In this document: positions 2,962 to 54,658 of the stretch, piece after piece
Layout: each line of letters starts with the position of its first letter
Numbering within the stretch: the first letter of the stretch is position 1
DNA from: a virus
Length of the DNA: 64,000 nucleotides
Strand: one strand, 5' to 3'
Virus record (IMG/VR): IMGVR_UViG_3300017934_000005
Coordinates: 1 to 64,000 of that record
Translations under genes and position numbers: made by a program
Notes under the pieces: generated by a model
Databases searched by the model: none
What the model saw: the letters and a program-made list of their open reading frames with translations, nothing else
Told to the model about the DNA's origin: nothing

Positions 2962-2967
2962 GTTTAT

Positions 2968-3042
2968 GCGGCTTGCATCTTAGGAGATTACTCAATAGGC
3001 CAATTGAGCAAGCGGTTCGAATCCGCCACGAGGCCGCTCCAT
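2968..3042 (+). tRNA. Aberrant tRNA-like gene, identity uncertain
   Basis: Acceptor GCGGCTT/AGGCCGC with T-CCA and a clear T-loop TTCGAAT are present. However, the D-arm is ATCT-TAGG-AGAT, the anticodon stem CTCAA/TTGAG closes an eight-base loop TAGGCCAA, and three extra bases separate T-arm and acceptor. No anticodon follows a T33 in the normal register. It is either a decaying tRNA gene or a tRNA with an unusual loop. Confidence 0.45.
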
Positions 3043-3044
3043 TT

Positions 3045-3091
3045 TGTATCGTCCGAAGGCTCATCTACCTATCGGCTGGTAACGATACAAT
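3045..3091 (+). ncRNA. Inter-tRNA stem-closed RNA element 3
   Basis: A perfect eight-base stem TTGTATCG (3045-3052) / CGATACAA (3084-3091) encloses 31 bases containing CCGAAGG...CTATCGG, which can pair further. It starts three bases after the aberrant tRNA and ends six before the next tRNA. It resembles elements 1 and 2 in design, with an 8-bp closing stem between tRNA genes. Confidence 0.45.
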
Positions 3092-3096
3092 TTATA

Positions 3097-3187
3097 GTCG
3101 GGTAGCTTAATGGTAAAGCAGCGGCTTTATACACCGCAAGCGCTAGATTGGCGCGTGATGAGAGTTCAAGTCTCTCCCCGACCACCA
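3097..3187 (+). tRNA. Class II tRNA with anticodon TAT (Ile codon), odd
   Basis: T-arm GAGAG-TTCAAGT-CTCTC, D-arm with TGG, encoded A-CCA, and a long variable arm (GCGC...GCGC). Long variable arms belong to Leu, Ser and Tyr tRNAs, yet the seven-base loop TTTATAC reads TAT. Positions 31 and 39 are C and A, and 1 and 72 are A and C, so neither pairs. It may be a diverged tRNA-Tyr or an Ile(AUA) decoder on a class II frame. Confidence 0.7.
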
Positions 3188-3190
3188 GAA

Positions 3191-3265
3191 CGGTCTATAG
3201 CTCAACGGTAGAGTACCTGGCTCTTACCCAGCGGGATGAAGGTTCAAATCCTTCTAGACCGACCA
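3191..3265 (+). tRNA. tRNA-Lys (anticodon CTT)
   Basis: Acceptor CGGTCTA/TAGACCG, anticodon loop CTCTTAC on a four-pair stem CTGG/CCAG, T-arm GAAGG-TTCAAAT-CCTTC, encoded ACCA. Confidence 0.88.
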
Positions 3266-3506: not shown

Positions 3507-3509
3507 AAT

Positions 3510-3585
3510 GCACTCAATGCCGAAGCGAACGAGGCAATCGTCTGCAAAACGATAAAACTTGGTTTGAGTCCAAGTGGGTGCTCCA
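3510..3585 (+). tRNA. tRNA-Cys (anticodon GCA)
   Basis: Acceptor GCACTCA/TGGGTGC, anticodon stem ATCGT/ACGAT with loop CTGCAAA, T-loop TTTGAGT, discriminator T and encoded CCA. Confidence 0.9.
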
Positions 3586-4467: not shown

Positions 4468-4540
4468 GTTTCGCCGTGACCATGGATCGGCGATAGCGCC
4501 CGCACGGAGGCAGTCGCCGTGTTGCCCGAGGCGTAAAAAG
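4468..4540 (+). ncRNA. Inter-tRNA structured element 4
   Basis: Two hairpins occupy the gap between tRNA-Lys and tRNA-Gln: TCGCCG (4471-4476) / CGGCGA (4488-4493), and CACGG (4503-4507) / CCGTG (4517-4521). CGCC near 4472 can alternatively pair with GGCG near 4530, closing the whole unit. There is no tRNA consensus. Role unknown. Confidence 0.4.
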
Positions 4541-4551
4541 TATCGGCTTAT

Positions 4552-4626
4552 TGCCTTGTGATCCAATTGGTAGGATGCGTGGCTTTGAACCACGTCATGA
4601 AGGTTCGAGTCCTTCCGAGGCAACCA
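4552..4626 (+). tRNA. tRNA-Gln (anticodon TTG)
   Basis: Acceptor TGCCTTG/CGAGGCA, anticodon stem CGTGG/CCACG with loop CTTTGAA, T-arm GAAGG-TTCGAGT-CCTTC, encoded ACCA. It is similar to the following tRNA-Gln; the anticodon stems are identical, suggesting duplication. Confidence 0.92.
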
Positions 4627-43456: not shown

Positions 43457-43673
43457 GTCTCCCCCAAGTGAATGTGATTCCCATGGCGATGTTTTTATTC
43501 TTGGCCCCAGCCGTTGGAATCAAGTTTAGCCAGATCGCCTCTGGTGCGATCCTGGGCACGTCGAGTTGATGACCACCCCGATCTGGCAACCTGAGGGTTG
43601 CAACCTGGGGAGGAAACACGGCTCCCAACGGAGTCGCAAAACTGAAAGACAGCACGAGTGAGGCTAAGATCAT
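43446..43673 (-). CDS. Putative secreted protein, 75 aa
   Basis: An N-terminal hydrophobic segment (MILASLVLSFSFATPLGAVF) looks like a signal peptide; the mature part is short, with GAKNKNIAMGITFTWGRRGH at the end. ATG overlaps the receiver gene's stop. Function unknown. Confidence 0.55.
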   Translation of the reverse strand: MILASLVLSFSFATPLGAVFPPQVATLRLPDRGGHQLDVPRIAPEAIWLNLIPTAGAKNKNIAMGITFTWGRRGH

Positions 43674-44050
43674 TCGCTCACCTTAATATCAAAGGTTCCG
43701 AACGGCAACCAGATCGCTCCGGGCATGATGTCTTGCAAATTCTTGGCTCCGCTTGGATTCAGAGAGTGGATTACGACTCGTTTCCCCACATTCGGGTCTC
43801 GTTCTACCAGATACTTCGCCACGTCCGTGCTGAAAGGCGGCATATAAGGTGCGCCTCCCAGATCGTGATCGAAGAAAAACAGATCGAAATAACCAGTACC
43901 AAGAGATTTGAAAGTCTGAATCGCCTGTTCTGGCGAATCGGTGTGACCCAACAGCCTGATTCCAAGTCGATCCTGAAACCACCTGATCCGTTCCGGGTTA
44001 TCCTCAATCAGGAAAACAGTCGCGTTCTTAGGGACAGTAATAAGTGCCAA
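43670..44050 (-). CDS. Receiver-like domain protein, cREC type, 126 aa
   Basis: TTG 44050 lies six bases after GAGG. VFLIEDNPERIRWFQDRLG, FDLFFFDHDLGG and VVIHSLNPSGAKNLQDIMPG follow the CheY-like order, but the third motif (IHS.N..GA.N) is that of the 'cyclic-phosphate processing receiver' (cREC) family rather than two-component regulators. From memory that family is predicted to act in RNA-repair or nucleotide-signal systems. No output domain is attached. Other RNA-repair-type genes lie within 10 kb. Confidence 0.72.
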   Translation of the reverse strand: MALITVPKNATVFLIEDNPERIRWFQDRLGIRLLGHTDSPEQAIQTFKSLGTGYFDLFFFDHDLGGAPYMPPFSTDVAKYLVERDPNVGKRVVIHSLNPSGAKNLQDIMPGAIWLPFGTFDIKVSE

Positions 44051-45705: not shown

Positions 45706-45894
45706 TTATTCCTTGCCATCTCGTATGGCTTGAAGGTGCTCCCATTCGTACTTGGCATCTTCGAGCCATGAAACTGCCAGGTCCAGTAATTCTCTCTGGA
45801 GAGCACTGTCTACCTGCTTCATCGCTTTGATAAAGTATTTCCAGTGCGGGCTGAGCAGGTACCGAACATGACGAATTACAGGCCAGAATTTCAT
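45706..45894 (-). CDS. Small helical protein, 62 aa
   Basis: ATG 45894 overlaps the stop of the transglycosylase gene (AAATGA). Helical, Trp-rich (LLDLAVSWLEDAKYEWEHLQ). Its coupling suggests a lysis-related or regulatory partner, unproven. Confidence 0.58.
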   Translation of the reverse strand: MKFWPVIRHVRYLLSPHWKYFIKAMKQVDSALQRELLDLAVSWLEDAKYEWEHLQAIRDGKE

Positions 45895-46442
45895 TTGCCC
45901 GCCAATACCTGAACCTTGAGAGCGTAAGCATCCGCATCAGGACCTATGCCATCGTAGTGACTGACCCAAGATCGACCGTAAGTCTTAATCATAGACGCCA
46001 TGATCTTAGTCCCAGTGTCCATGTTCTGCTCAGGATTGAAAAGATTAACCTGGGCGAAATCATACGCGGAAGCCTGAACCTTGACATTGATCTGTGTGAG
46101 TCCAACGGCACCCTTGCCGGAAATCGCCAGTGGATTGCAACTAGATTCCACGGAAACGATGGCCGCTATCATATTGGCCGGAACCTGATTGCGAATCGAG
46201 TTCTCAGCGGTCATCTCTGCAAGTTTCATATCGCCACAGCCAGATTTGCCATAGATTCGAGCCGCGTCAAAGAATGCCTTGCGAAATGTGACATTCTGAT
46301 ACGGGTCTATTACTGGAGTAACAGCAGCTTTCACACTTGATTGTGTCGTAAACGGAAACACCATCGTCTCCGCTTTTGGCTGAATTGGTGCCAAAGTTGC
46401 CGCCAGCAAAACCAAGGCTTGGAAAGTGTTGATAAGCTTCAC
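45891..46442 (-). CDS. Exported lytic transglycosylase (SLT-type), 183 aa
   Basis: GTG 46442 is chosen because AAAGGAGG lies five bases upstream and the protein then begins with a signal peptide (KLINTFQALVLLAATLAPI). The SLT motif follows: IVSVESSCNP with the catalytic Glu, then GKGAVGLTQIN, and NPEQNMDTGTKIMASMI. These enzymes cut the glycan backbone to anhydromuropeptides. Export implies action from the periplasm. A muramidase gene lies 2 kb upstream, giving two glycan-cutting enzymes in the region. Confidence 0.85.
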   Translation of the reverse strand: MKLINTFQALVLLAATLAPIQPKAETMVFPFTTQSSVKAAVTPVIDPYQNVTFRKAFFDAARIYGKSGCGDMKLAEMTAENSIRNQVPANMIAAIVSVESSCNPLAISGKGAVGLTQINVKVQASAYDFAQVNLFNPEQNMDTGTKIMASMIKTYGRSWVSHYDGIGPDADAYALKVQVLAGK

Positions 46443-46570
46443 GCTATCCTCCTTTGAAAAGTTAGAGCCGGTACTCCCATTAGCTTCTTCCACTTATACG
46501 GGTGCTTATGGTGGATGTCGGCCGCTTCGTCGGGTCTTCCCCTCCACGGTCACGCTTCCCGGCTCCAGAT

Positions 46571-46586
46571 GGGCTCACGTGAGCCC
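46571..46586. repeat. Perfect 16-bp palindrome
   Basis: GGGCTCACGTGAGCCC is its own reverse complement. It lies 130 bases upstream of the transglycosylase start at the 3' side of the structured region and could be an operator or a stable RNA stem. Confidence 0.6.
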
Positions 46587-46837
46587 AGGTGCACCACATC
46601 TATTTATACAGCGACTCATCAGGAGTCAACTGTGTTCGGCACCATTCTGGCCGGCCTGATGCCCGGCTAGATGCCGCCTTTTGCCGACTATTGACCCCAC
46701 GTCTGGTCCATTCGGTCGGCATAGATTTTAGAGCCGAATCATCGTTCGGCTCAACTCAAGAATGGCGGCGAGGGGCGTCTCCGTTGGACCCCTACTTTAA
46801 TCCGTGACGAACAATAACGAACACAGAACCACGTTAA

Positions 46838-46916
46838 TAGCGCCGATGCTGGGAGTCGAACCCAGATTCCCGCTTTACAGGAGCGGTGTCTTTCCAGAGA
46901 GCCTTTTATAAGCGCC
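46838..46916 (-). pseudogene. tRNA-Thr-like module (TGT) without a proper acceptor
   Basis: A perfect T-arm CTGGG-TTCGACT-CCCAG and anticodon arm CCGCT-CCTGTAA-AGCGG (reading TGT, with C33) are separated normally, with a D-arm-like segment before them. GGCGCT at the 5' end can pair only imperfectly with GGCGCTA at the 3' end, leaving three or more extra bases after the T-arm. No CCA follows. Either a decayed tRNA, an attachment-site remnant, or a tRNA-like domain of the surrounding RNA. Confidence 0.5.
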
Positions 46917-46936
46917 GTCTACACGGCTTACCCTTC
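46914..46936 (-). repeat. Covarying 23-nt hairpin motif, copy 2
   Basis: Minus strand: GAAGGGTAA followed by GCCGT-GTAG-ACGGC. Same loop and 5' strand as copy 1 but with one C:G pair inverted. Confidence 0.7.
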
Positions 46937-47124
46937 GCTTTGCGCAGGCTCTACTTAGACCACATCGATTACCGGTAGGAGCCGAGGCACATTATGTGTC
47001 CTCTTTGGCGACGATCCCAGGTGCCAAGGCCGGCAGCACCGACTCTTCACGTCACCCGGACGATTATTCCTCAGCTTGGTCGGCTTCGGCTTATCGTCCC
47101 ATCCTATATAGCTCCTAAATCGCG

Positions 47125-47196
47125 TCCTGGTCGGGGGTTCAACCCGCATCTCCGGTACTAGTATGCTGATTTAGAAGTTCAGCGTCTATGACCAGA
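47125..47196 (-). ncRNA. tRNA-like unit lacking a D-arm
   Basis: TCTGGTC (47196-47190) pairs over seven bases with GACCAGG (47132-47126), followed by A in the discriminator position. Inside are GCTGA...TCAGC with CTTCTAA in the loop (anticodon-like TCT) and CGGG-TTGAACC-CCCG as a T-arm. No D-arm can be drawn and no CCA follows. Confidence 0.45.
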
Positions 47197-47224
47197 ATCT
47201 TTTTGTTGAGATGAATTGTTCGCG

Positions 47225-47247
47225 GCCCTCTACAGGGCTTACCCTTC
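47225..47247 (-). repeat. Covarying 23-nt hairpin motif, copy 1
   Basis: Minus strand: GAAGGGTAA followed by GCCCT-GTAG-AGGGC. Differs from copy 2 only at the two bases that pair with each other. Confidence 0.7.
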
Positions 47248-47298
47248 CGCTTTTCATCTCTCAAGAGCGCAAGGCTCTTTAGACGACAGGAATATCGT

Positions 47299-47547
47299 TT
47301 ACAGCGTAAACTTTGGCGTAGCCTTGGCTTGCTGCGGCTTCAGAGCCATCTCAAGAGCATCGATTTCCTCGCGCAGACGAGCCACGATCTTTTCCACGTG
47401 TTCTGAAAGCGGTTTGTGATGCGCAAGCTTGCCAATAAGTTGAATACTGGCAATAGCACGAGACGTGCGAGCCTGAGCCAACTGAATGAATTTTTGTTGT
47501 TTTTCGCTGATAGCGATTTCAGTAGGTGATGCGTTTCCTGGTTTCAT
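47299..47547 (-). CDS. Small helical protein ahead of the structured RNA region, 82 aa
   Basis: ATG 47547 follows GGAGGATAG. Helical with a long Ala/Glu/Lys/Arg segment (LSEHVEKIVARLREEIDALE). It is directly served by a strong promoter and is the only gene between that promoter and the structured 856-nt region; it may be a dedicated partner of that RNA, or merely share its transcript. Confidence 0.7.
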   Translation of the reverse strand: MKPGNASPTEIAISEKQQKFIQLAQARTSRAIASIQLIGKLAHHKPLSEHVEKIVARLREEIDALEMALKPQQAKATPKFTL

Positions 47548-47564
47548 CTATCCTCCACATAAAC

Positions 47565-47593
47565 AAAATACCAAATCTCTCGCAGGTTGTCAA
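47565..47593 (-). promoter_or_regulatory. Strong sigma70-type promoter upstream of the 82-aa gene and structured RNA
   Basis: Minus strand TTGACA (47593-47588), 17-base spacer ending TTTGG, TATTTT (47570-47565). The start is expected near 47558, eleven bases before the ATG. Upstream, at the same distance as in the 59678 promoter, lies the ATAATTCCCGAAAA box. Confidence 0.82.
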
Positions 47594-47599
47594 CACTTA

Positions 47600-47624
47600 T
47601 TTTCGGGAATTATAGAGTTAACTC
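47600..47624 (-). promoter_or_regulatory. Putative operator/UP box with palindrome GAGTTAACTC
   Basis: On the minus strand ATAATTCCCGAAAA (47613-47600) ends six bases before TTGACA. Just upstream is the palindrome GAGTTAACTC (47615-47624). The 14-base box and the six-base spacing recur at the 59678 promoter. Confidence 0.6.
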
Positions 47625-47834
47625 CCCTGAAATTTCCTCAGTTGTTAAAGATCGCAGTCCAGCCTCTGTCCAATAAGATCGATCAGTTGGACAGGGTGAT
47701 TGAAGAACCAGATATTGCCATTCTCCTTCCTCAAAATCTAACACTTCCATGATTCGTCCGTAAAAACCAAGATCATCGATGAACACAACTTGGTTCTTCT
47801 TAAACTTTGGTTTCGGCTGTTTTATTTTTGGCAT
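47610..47834 (-). CDS. KOW/SH3-like small protein, 74 aa
   Basis: ATG 47834 follows AAGGGA. KFKKNQVVFIDDLGFYGRIM looks like the first strand pair of a KOW or SH3-like barrel. Its 3' end reaches into the operator of the following promoter. Function unknown. Confidence 0.62.
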   Translation of the reverse strand: MPKIKQPKPKFKKNQVVFIDDLGFYGRIMEVLDFEEGEWQYLVLQSPCPTDRSYWTEAGLRSLTTEEISGELTL

Positions 47835-50162: not shown

Positions 50163-50765
50163 TCATTCACCTTTTCCTTCCGCATCTTTCTCGAAAGTCT
50201 TCTTGAACAGAGTTTTCGTAGCTTGGTGATAAACTACAATTCCTTCGGGCTGCATAAACCCTGGAGCAGTCACACTCCCTCCCAGGCGTAATCCATTCAT
50301 CGCGGCTTCAATAGCCGAGGTTTCGAATAAACCTTCATAAAGAATGGGCACGACTCCACAGTAGGCTGGTCGTTGGTCTCGACCATCCCGCCAGCGATTC
50401 ACGTTGAAGAGACTGAATCTCTTTTCGCTGAGACCATACCGACGCTGAATTCCGAGACCCCACCACTCCCCGAAATGATGCCCAGGTCCGAGTTGGAGAA
50501 GTTCGTCTCGATGTTCGTGAGCCCACTTGGAAAAACCATAGTTGTCATCGGAAGGAGTAATCCAGCGGGTCCGTGAGCCTGTGAGAAAGAGACCTGCATC
50601 CCCGTTTTCCTCGCTGCCAATATAGATGCTCGCATTGGTTCCATCGATCTTCTTCGTGATCGTACAGCCGCGACTTAGCCTCCCGATCTTCGGCATTGGC
50701 TTAAACTCCGGTAGTGGCGGAGTACCAGAATTACACTCTGGAGTACCACAAAAATATGTCGTCAT
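50163..50765 (-). CDS. RNA ligase family protein (Rnl-type nucleotidyltransferase), 200 aa
   Basis: Motif I TKKIDGTNA places the adenylated Lys at residue 39. Motif III-like residues, GEWWGLGI, motif IV EGIVVYH and motif V LFKKTFE follow in the order of the ATP-dependent ligase superfamily. The size (200 aa, core only) suits small RNA ligases of the Rnl2/T4-like or RNA-ligase-domain group that seal 3'-OH/5'-P nicks in tRNA. RtcB is encoded 3 kb away, so the phage would have two complementary sealing chemistries. Confidence 0.85.
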   Translation of the reverse strand: MTTYFCGTPECNSGTPPLPEFKPMPKIGRLSRGCTITKKIDGTNASIYIGSEENGDAGLFLTGSRTRWITPSDDNYGFSKWAHEHRDELLQLGPGHHFGEWWGLGIQRRYGLSEKRFSLFNVNRWRDGRDQRPAYCGVVPILYEGLFETSAIEAAMNGLRLGGSVTAPGFMQPEGIVVYHQATKTLFKKTFEKDAEGKGE

Positions 50766-53150: not shown

Positions 53151-53490
53151 CATTTGGGACCCCACGTGAAACAACGTTTGTAAACTTCTCTGGCTTTTTG
53201 ACTTCGGCGCTTTCCAAAATAAGGCATTAGCAGAGTTAAAACCTTCACAATGTCAGATTTTTTCTTTGTACGCCAGCGAAGTGACGGGCTGTGTTTACGA
53301 TTCTTGGGTTTCCATAAACGAAGATGCCCGACTTTCACAATCCTTAAAAACCGTCTGACCACATCGCGGTCTTTCATTCCTAATGCGAGCCCGGAGTCTT
53401 GCATTTGCCAGCTATGAAAATACAACCTTCACCCTCGAACAGGCCAGCAGCCCAAGCAATTTCTCTTGTTCTAATCTTTGTACGGATCAT
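53150..53490 (-). pseudogene. LAGLIDADG endonuclease split by a frameshift
   Basis: Frame 1 (53490-53380) begins at an ATG inside the rtcB end and carries REIAWAAGLFEGEGC, the family signature. Frame 2 (53425-53150) continues with LALGMKDRDVVRRFLRIVKV and KPKNRKHSPSLRWRTKKK, the matching C-terminal half of a single-motif LAGLIDADG enzyme. The join needs a -1 shift near 53390-53420 with no obvious slippery run. It is a decayed homing gene, a programmed-shift gene, or a sequencing error. Confidence 0.65.
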
Positions 53491-54658
53491 ACTCCTCACT
53501 ACCGGCCATTGCCACACCTAAGGGTTTCAAGGTATGGAGAATTCTGATCGTGGGTCCCATTTCACGGAGTACATCAGGCAATCGCTTGTAGCAATCTGGG
53601 CTTTCATCCAGACCGGAACCGCGAAGCTCAATACCGGATTGGGTCAGCCAAGAATTCATCATAGCATTCGTTACTCTGCCCGGCCTGGTTATCTCTCCAG
53701 TTTTCCGATTTCGTTTGCCCGCCGCTTCCATTCGACCCATCACCCTCCCTGCACCATGGACGGTAGAGTAAAAAGTGCGTTCGGACTCAAAACCGGCTTC
53801 GGCTCCTTCGATGATAACTGCCGACTCAGCCATAGTGCCTCCAACAAATCCTCTCTGTCCGGGAAACGCAGGAGTCGCACCTTTTCGTACAACATACAGG
53901 TCTTTGCCATTGTGTTTTTCGAGCCAGGAAAAATTGTGATGGTTGTGGACCTGTTCAAGAATCTGTCCTCCTATGATATTAGCCACTTTCTGGCAGACCC
54001 AATCACGGCCAGCGTAGGCGTACCATCCCGCCAACTGCATAGCTTCCTGATACTGCACCCCCAGATCAGAGCAAGCATCCAAAACCAAGGGCTCGACATC
54101 CATACCGTCTTTCGCGCCTCCAGCCTTCAGAAACCAAGTCGCGGTCTTGTGTCCAAGTCCACGGGAACCAAAGTGAACACCTACCCAGATGCGCTCAAGT
54201 TCATCCTCGAAGATGTCAACGTAGTGATTCCCCGAGCCCACGGTACCAAGCTGGTCCTGGGCTAAGTCCTTCAGGTCTTTGTTGGCTTCAAGATGCCAAA
54301 GATTCGCGTCATCGAACATAGGGTGATCAATGACACTAGCATTTTTCCGGCCAATGCCGAAACTGATTTCTTTCCAAACAGAATCCATAAGCCGGCTAAT
54401 ATTTTCACGCACGTACTGAACAGGAACATCGAGACGAACAGCTTTGTTACCGCAGCCGATGTCATACCCGACGCCAGATGGAGAGATAGCATTTTCATAA
54501 GCTAGAACGCCTCCTATTGGAACCGCATAGCCTTTGTGGTGATCGGCCATCAGTGCTGCGCCCACGACTCGAGGATCACGGGCGCATGTTATGATCTGAA
54601 CCAGTGCGCCGTGATCCATAGGCCAACCATAGACCGGGATGTTCTCAACGATGTGCAT
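53471..54658 (-). CDS. rtcB: RtcB-type RNA-splicing/repair ligase, 395 aa
   Basis: Signature blocks are all visible: GYDIGCGNKAVR with metal ligands D66 and C69, GTVGSGNHYVD (139-149), VHFGSRGLGHKT, HNHHNF, RKGATPAFPGQRGFVGG, and STVHGAGRVMGR with the guanylated His H301. RtcB joins 2',3'-cyclic phosphate or 3'-phosphate ends to 5'-OH using GTP and Mn2+, repairing tRNAs cut by anticodon nucleases. A tRNA array and an Rnl-type ligase are encoded too. Its 3' end overlaps the LAGLIDADG fragment. Confidence 0.95.
   Translation of the reverse strand: MHIVENIPVYGWPMDHGALVQIITCARDPRVVGAALMADHHKGYAVPIGGVLAYENAISPSGVGYDIGCGNKAVRLDVPVQYVRENISRLMDSVWKEISFGIGRKNASVIDHPMFDDANLWHLEANKDLKDLAQDQLGTVGSGNHYVDIFEDELERIWVGVHFGSRGLGHKTATWFLKAGGAKDGMDVEPLVLDACSDLGVQYQEAMQLAGWYAYAGRDWVCQKVANIIGGQILEQVHNHHNFSWLEKHNGKDLYVVRKGATPAFPGQRGFVGGTMAESAVIIEGAEAGFESERTFYSTVHGAGRVMGRMEAAGKRNRKTGEITRPGRVTNAMMNSWLTQSGIELRGSGLDESPDCYKRLPDVLREMGPTIRILHTLKPLGVAMAGSEEYDPYKD

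Follow-up and report, generated by a model that had tools for sequence, protein, structure and literature searches.

Separately recurring structured RNA modules, among them a conserved covarying hairpin, in an 856-nt gene-free gap of a soil phage genome

The window, the whole stretch of DNA analysed here, comprises bases 1-64,000 of a linear 96,675-base IMG/VR virus record. It belongs to a tailed phage with terminase, portal and head proteins; judged by the head protein, Tunturiibacter phage Tunturi_3 (37%; 33% for its portal) is the sole relative that has a name. Tunturi_3 is a podovirus of Acidobacteriota (PMC11924767), and the host of this soil phage therefore probably also belongs to the Acidobacteriota. 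The phage has an array of 20 tRNAs at 0.3-4.7 kb. Reading of the sequence suggests three more tRNA-like genes on the plus strand, none of them called by ARAGORN: a T-arm lacking CCA (2390-2440), a D-arm-poor tRNA with CCA (2966-3042) and a plausible tRNA-Cys(GCA) with CCA (3507-3583). The window also encodes an RNA ligase (PF09414) and, by reading, an RtcB-like ORF (50163-50765 and 53471-54658, minus strand); the phage could therefore repair or splice RNA.

Between two minus-strand genes of the window lies a gap of exactly 856 nt (46443-47298). Its setting, in the direction of transcription, is as follows:

47565-47593, minus strand: sigma-70-like promoter, TTGACA-17-TATTTT with TG before the -10 (extended -10); 10 of 12 consensus matches
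47299-47547, minus strand: upstream gene of 82 aa; homologue in the related phage G019 (34%)
45891-46442, minus strand: downstream gene for a secreted SLT (lytic) transglycosylase, GTG start at 46442; Pfam PF01464, 60 bits; homologue in G019 (59%)

The promoter, already proposed in the first-pass annotation, stands as a consensus match with an extended -10, and the minus strand shows no terminator-like site downstream to 45500. With a promoter upstream and no such site, the gap should share one mRNA with both genes. A search of IMG/VR for homologues with an adjacent transglycosylase gave one match, which was unrelated. The same annotation had placed the gap in a tightly packed region with a tRNA neighbourhood, and neither description is borne out. 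Of the 29 gaps that a crude gene caller leaves in 38-62 kb, just 10 do not exceed 10 nt (the median of 226 nt is an overestimate, because the caller misses genes), Tunturi_3 has several gaps of more than 600 nt, and the tRNA array lies about 42 kb away on the opposite strand.

The gap itself is gene-free, as first described. Its ORFs of at least 35 aa have negative or near-zero codon-usage scores, and none of the seven that were tested matches PHROGs or Pfam at E≤0.1, on which grounds a protein-coding gap was rejected. Among annotated phages there is no match to the 856-nt stretch. Rfam gives none at gathering score, whether to GOLLD, ROOL, tmRNA, RNase P or any other class; the best match below it is a tRNA fragment of 18 bits, and the GOLLD and ROOL models find nothing at E≤10 in 46200-47700. 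The minus strand was said to be rich in RNA structure, and its fold beats 20 of 20 dinucleotide shuffles (z -3.2). The plus strand folds equally well (z -5.4), so that folding energy does not settle the strand; since, moreover, steps of 150 nt reveal one striking window only (46601-46750, z -4.5), folding energy alone is weak evidence. Individual modules have z-scores of -1.5 to -3.5, biased because their borders were picked from the fold; coding controls range from +0.9 to -1.85, with a mean of about -0.3. The modules, again in the direction of transcription, are:

47263-47279, minus strand: small hairpin AAGAGC...GCTCTT after the stop codon (sequence reading; minimum-energy fold)
47208-47260, minus strand: hairpin holding copy a of the motif R1 (core 47220-47252); z -3.15, covariation across phages
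47124-47198, minus strand: tRNA-like module 1, with acceptor ATTCTGG/CCAGGAC, an anticodon-type arm and a T arm, no clear D arm and no CCA (sequence reading; ARAGORN at lowered threshold only; z -1.5)
46977-47116, minus strand: closed multi-branched domain AGGAGC...GCTCCT; z -3.0, no homologue found
46842-46969, minus strand: tRNA-like module 2, a cloverleaf of tRNA-Thr(UGU) shape whose D-loop carries a 55-nt hairpin (ARAGORN without the insert; four arms in the minimum-energy fold; the 18-bit Rfam tRNA fragment)
46898-46952, minus strand: the insert in that D-loop, AGAGCC...GGCTCT, with copy b of R1 inside it (core 46909-46941; R1 covariance model, insert-removal test with ARAGORN)
46771-46830, minus strand: module B, two hairpins joined by GATTAAAG; 87% identity over 46 nt to positions 1460-1504 of the related phage G017
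46640-46767, minus strand: closed multi-branched domain CGCCATTC...GAATGGTG; z -3.5, no homologue found
46608-46633, minus strand: hairpin ACAG...CTGT (minimum-energy fold)
46465-46565, minus strand: module C, GAGCCGG-GAA...GAGTA-CCGGCTC just before the Shine-Dalgarno sequence; same frame, changed flanking pairs and syntenic place in G019

A hammerhead reading of CTGATGA near 46616-46625 was rejected, as the motif lies in a hairpin loop and no second core strand is seen.

R1 consists of an outer stem, a 9-nt bulge AAGGGUAAG, a 3-bp stem and the loop UGUAGA. A 22-base pattern built from both window copies served for the first search and matched six IMG/VR contigs, representing three other phages, all between genes; a pattern with the inner stem left free, together with one further pattern, added the lineages L066 and L129. 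R1 is thus known in six phage lineages, this phage and five further ones from IMG/VR, always outside genes:

L002: upstream of terminase
L003: in a terminator-like hairpin, followed by a T-run
L004: about 85 nt before a gene
L066: directly before a ribosome-binding site
L129: directly after three tRNA-Thr genes

The outer flanks of R1 were in none of the search patterns. They pair in 7 of 7 instances, with eight of the nine pairs changed on both sides; two-sided cells number 19, against 6.1 in shuffles, pairing amounts to 88.9% versus 24-48% when the flanks are slid, and matching the flanks with their own partners is the best assignment among 5040 permutations. The invariance of the unpaired bases is partly by construction, because the searches fixed those bases. 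A covariance model gives the seven instances 47-52 bits and everything else 18 or fewer. Both window copies (46.6 and 51.8 bits) have the bulge, the loop and paired inner and outer stems, and they retain every conserved base while their stems are compensated. The claim that a hairpin repeated on the minus strand (47220-47252 and 46909-46941) covaries is thereby upheld and extended across phages. R1 is a genuine conserved, covarying hairpin motif, previously uncatalogued: it corresponds to no family in Rfam, open-access papers yielded no description of it, and among the ten papers listed of 229 for the bulge string none was relevant. The strict pattern is absent from 84,980 GTDB species genomes; 14 matches of a loosened pattern in bacterial genome contigs have no outer stem and were taken as chance. 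No convincing copy was found in portal-related phages or in any of the five Tunturi phages, and G019 has no significant one. R1 is predicted to be a binding site, because 15 fixed unpaired bases sit on freely varying stems.

The two tRNA-like modules noted at first sight both persist, 46842-46969 strongly and 47124-47198 weakly. Module 1, the weaker, directly follows R1 copy a. In module 2, at full length, the acceptor, D, anticodon and T arms are all present in the lowest-energy structure. ARAGORN at default settings calls no tRNA in the module as it stands; with bases 46952-46898 left out, it calls a complete tRNA-Thr(tgt) with a 7-5-7-5-arm cloverleaf. The 55-nt insert occupies the D-loop ahead of the conserved GG, so that a natural tRNA-shaped domain carries the R1 hairpin; a group I intron was rejected by inspection, the insert being just 55 nt long. 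Module 2 departs from other features of tRNAs in having C33 for U33, an A.C first acceptor pair and a GCTA end in place of CCA, which the array tRNAs of this phage encode; for these reasons it is probably no working tRNA. In a custom scan of relatives, no further tRNA with an arm of this kind in its D-loop was convincing; the few long-D calls resembled a chance match or artefacts due to adjacent tRNAs.

Relatives were collected as 80 related IMG/VR loci by portal alignment, and 50 of these records were searched by BLAST with the 856 nt. The one clear match is to module B in G017, directly after tRNA-Pro(CGG) within an array of 18 tRNAs. Both copies have the same two-hairpin fold, and by eye two pairs of the second stem are changed on both sides (AGGGG/CCCCU versus CGUGG/CCACG). 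In the same phage, long spacers without obvious genes separate tRNA genes (2185-2280, 2355-2699 and 3038-3205, plus strand); they fold just mildly better than shuffles on either strand. G019 has the same neighbour genes, with a hairpin element of about 80 nt and a gene of 122 aa between them. This hairpin and module C have in common a CCGG/CCGG stem, flanked by two pairs that differ on both sides, as well as the internal GAA/GAGTA and, after it all, TAA, a T-rich stretch and AAGGAG. The conservation of modules B and C stands on one homologue each, and their comparison on reading and folding, because MAFFT alignments were poor. That the gap is a remnant of the 122-aa gene was rejected, as nothing in the 856 nt matches this gene. 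In Tunturi_3 a gap of 710 nt, similarly placed, contains a permuted tmRNA along with two tRNA-like genes; the 80-aa protein beside it shows no similarity to the 82-aa protein of this phage. The 856-nt region as a whole is in no relative found, while its parts recur alone, an absence that is weak evidence because most relatives are fragments.

GOLLD RNA often lies near tRNA islands and forms a homo-oligomeric cage. The first-pass annotation had likened the gap to GOLLD and ROOL; on that view a new class of large structured RNA would fill it as a single molecule, working as a scaffold or stable particle whose domains are the modules. Like GOLLD and ROOL, two RNAs of unknown function, it is phage-borne, non-coding, hundreds of nucleotides long and highly structured (PMC12286853); its size agrees with such a class, as do its tRNA-like parts, its several closed domains, the z of -3.2 for the whole region and the want of an Rfam match, and GOLLD linkers, too, sometimes hold tRNAs (PMC12286853). 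The same want of an Rfam match also sets the gap apart from GOLLD and ROOL themselves, as does the lack of an adjoining tRNA island and of any homologue of the whole. The parts, moreover, are separate in other phages: R1 occurs alone in five lineages, module B in G017 and module C in G019, each without the others, and the corresponding gap of G019 holds just the short RNA and a gene. A single large RNA therefore appears unlikely to us. What stands of the original proposal is a structured non-coding RNA with a covarying hairpin, tRNA-like modules and no Rfam family; what finds no support, since the parts recur separately, is its unity as one GOLLD- or ROOL-like molecule.

The occurrence of module B beside a tRNA in G017 and the long spacers in the arrays of relatives raise the question of whether the gap is debris from a translocated segment of a tRNA array, in which tRNAs and spacers that no longer function are decaying. 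In favour of this, neither tRNA-like module has a CCA, and there are defects in them (the A.C first pair, C33). Against it stand the two R1 copies, which preserve all conserved bases on compensated stems, the four intact arms of module 2 and a module C kept at its syntenic place, and we regard the debris explanation as quite unlikely. The position of module C, which abuts the Shine-Dalgarno sequence both here and in G019, would suit a cis-acting 5' leader, riboswitch-like or autoregulated by a protein, with R1 as the binding core and control of the transglycosylase as its sole job; R1 likewise precedes a ribosome-binding site in L066 and lies upstream of the start of the next gene in L004, L002 and L129. 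The genes that R1 precedes differ from phage to phage, however, and here the transglycosylase gene is some 470-800 nt away from it. R1 is followed by a terminator-like T-run in L003, and G019 has the transglycosylase and module C with no significant R1. A leader of this kind is highly improbable.

Because R1, B and C recur separately and no relative found keeps the 856-nt unit, we read the gap as a patchwork. On this reading, to which we give slightly less than an even chance, the 856 nt are a non-coding intercistronic assembly of independently inherited structured RNA modules, with R1 as a protein-binding hairpin and with predicted roles in processing and regulation. The same reading, just as tentatively, takes such modules to be placed in tRNA arrays and between genes by this phage group and by other soil phages. 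The RNA structure is real and probably functional. Promoter, 82-aa gene, RNA modules and lytic transglycosylase gene would be cotranscribed in that order. Host tRNA-processing enzymes may recognise the tRNA-shaped domains and cut the mRNA into stable pieces. R1 would bind one protein, its fixed unpaired bases on variable stems being what a docking site should look like, and module C, folded beside the Shine-Dalgarno sequence, may tune translation of the transglycosylase. A bolder proposal is somewhat unlikely: that R1 is a portable docking hairpin with which unrelated soil phages tag RNAs, or recruit them, by way of a protein of the phage or the host, and which is presented here on a natural tRNA scaffold by its placement in the D-loop.

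Together with its tRNAs, phage T4 makes small structured RNAs that are unexplained, the stable RNAs C and D of its tRNA cluster. The gap resembles them in kind, and here modules also lie between protein genes. The permuted tmRNAs (RF04321) of Tunturi_3, _4 and _5 resemble it in joining a tRNA-like piece to further structured RNA in an intergenic gap of a phage, but the gap has no RF04321 match and no tag-like element is seen. A tmRNA or permuted tmRNA was rejected here, as the best RF04321 score in the genome is 14 bits and lies outside the gap. In engineered aptamer-tagged tRNAs a hairpin is displayed on a tRNA scaffold as in module 2; those constructs are man-made and built around the variable arm, whereas module 2 is natural and carries its hairpin in the D-loop (PMC7590224). 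As with the put antiterminator RNA of HK022 (PMC9378689), small structured RNA elements of a phage lie here in untranslated sequence. Identity with put RNA was rejected, since there is no sequence match and the putL and putR sequences, read directly, differ.

Other structured RNAs were observed in this and other phages. Module D, likewise conserved, is a GCCCG..GGAAGTCG-type hairpin followed by GGCGTAAAAAGTANCGG and occurs in the tRNA arrays of three phages (window 4470-4556, plus strand; L129 7250-7330, minus strand; G019, locus L275, 10880-10981, plus strand). Its stem varies (ACGG/CCGT, AGGA/TCCT, ACGA/TCGT), it directly follows R1 in L129, and it has no Rfam match. Permuted tmRNA genes above the Rfam cut-off are present in three of the five cultured Acidobacteriota phages, all on the minus strand (PP885686, Tunturi_3, 88172-88396; PP885687, Tunturi_4, 43532-43941; PP885688, Tunturi_5, 157899-158195), and in three IMG/VR relatives (G050, G051, G052); ARAGORN agrees for Tunturi_4, G050 and G052. 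Two-piece tmRNA is known from marine phages (PMC9004378), and the paper on the Tunturi phages makes no mention of tmRNA (PMC11924767). Tunturi_3 has an unannotated gap of 1.66 kb (78677-80336; L161 31069-32728) that contains, among other short repeats, direct repeats of ATTGAGTACGTTT, and G000 has 2.8 kb (90380-93172) without a confident gene by a crude codon-based caller and with no tRNA or Rfam match.

Structured phage RNAs are already known as a kind; R1 itself has no Rfam match. Although the search of sequenced genomes of bacterial species did not reveal it, six phage lineages share it, and it comes with a binding-site prediction. If the docking reading of R1 is true, it would represent a new way of building functional phage RNA. 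In phages related to the Acidobacteriota isolates, both gaps and tRNA arrays hold unannotated structured RNAs, module D and the permuted tmRNAs too, and because cultured representatives exist in Tunturi_3, _4 and _5, these phages are good ground for new RNA biology.
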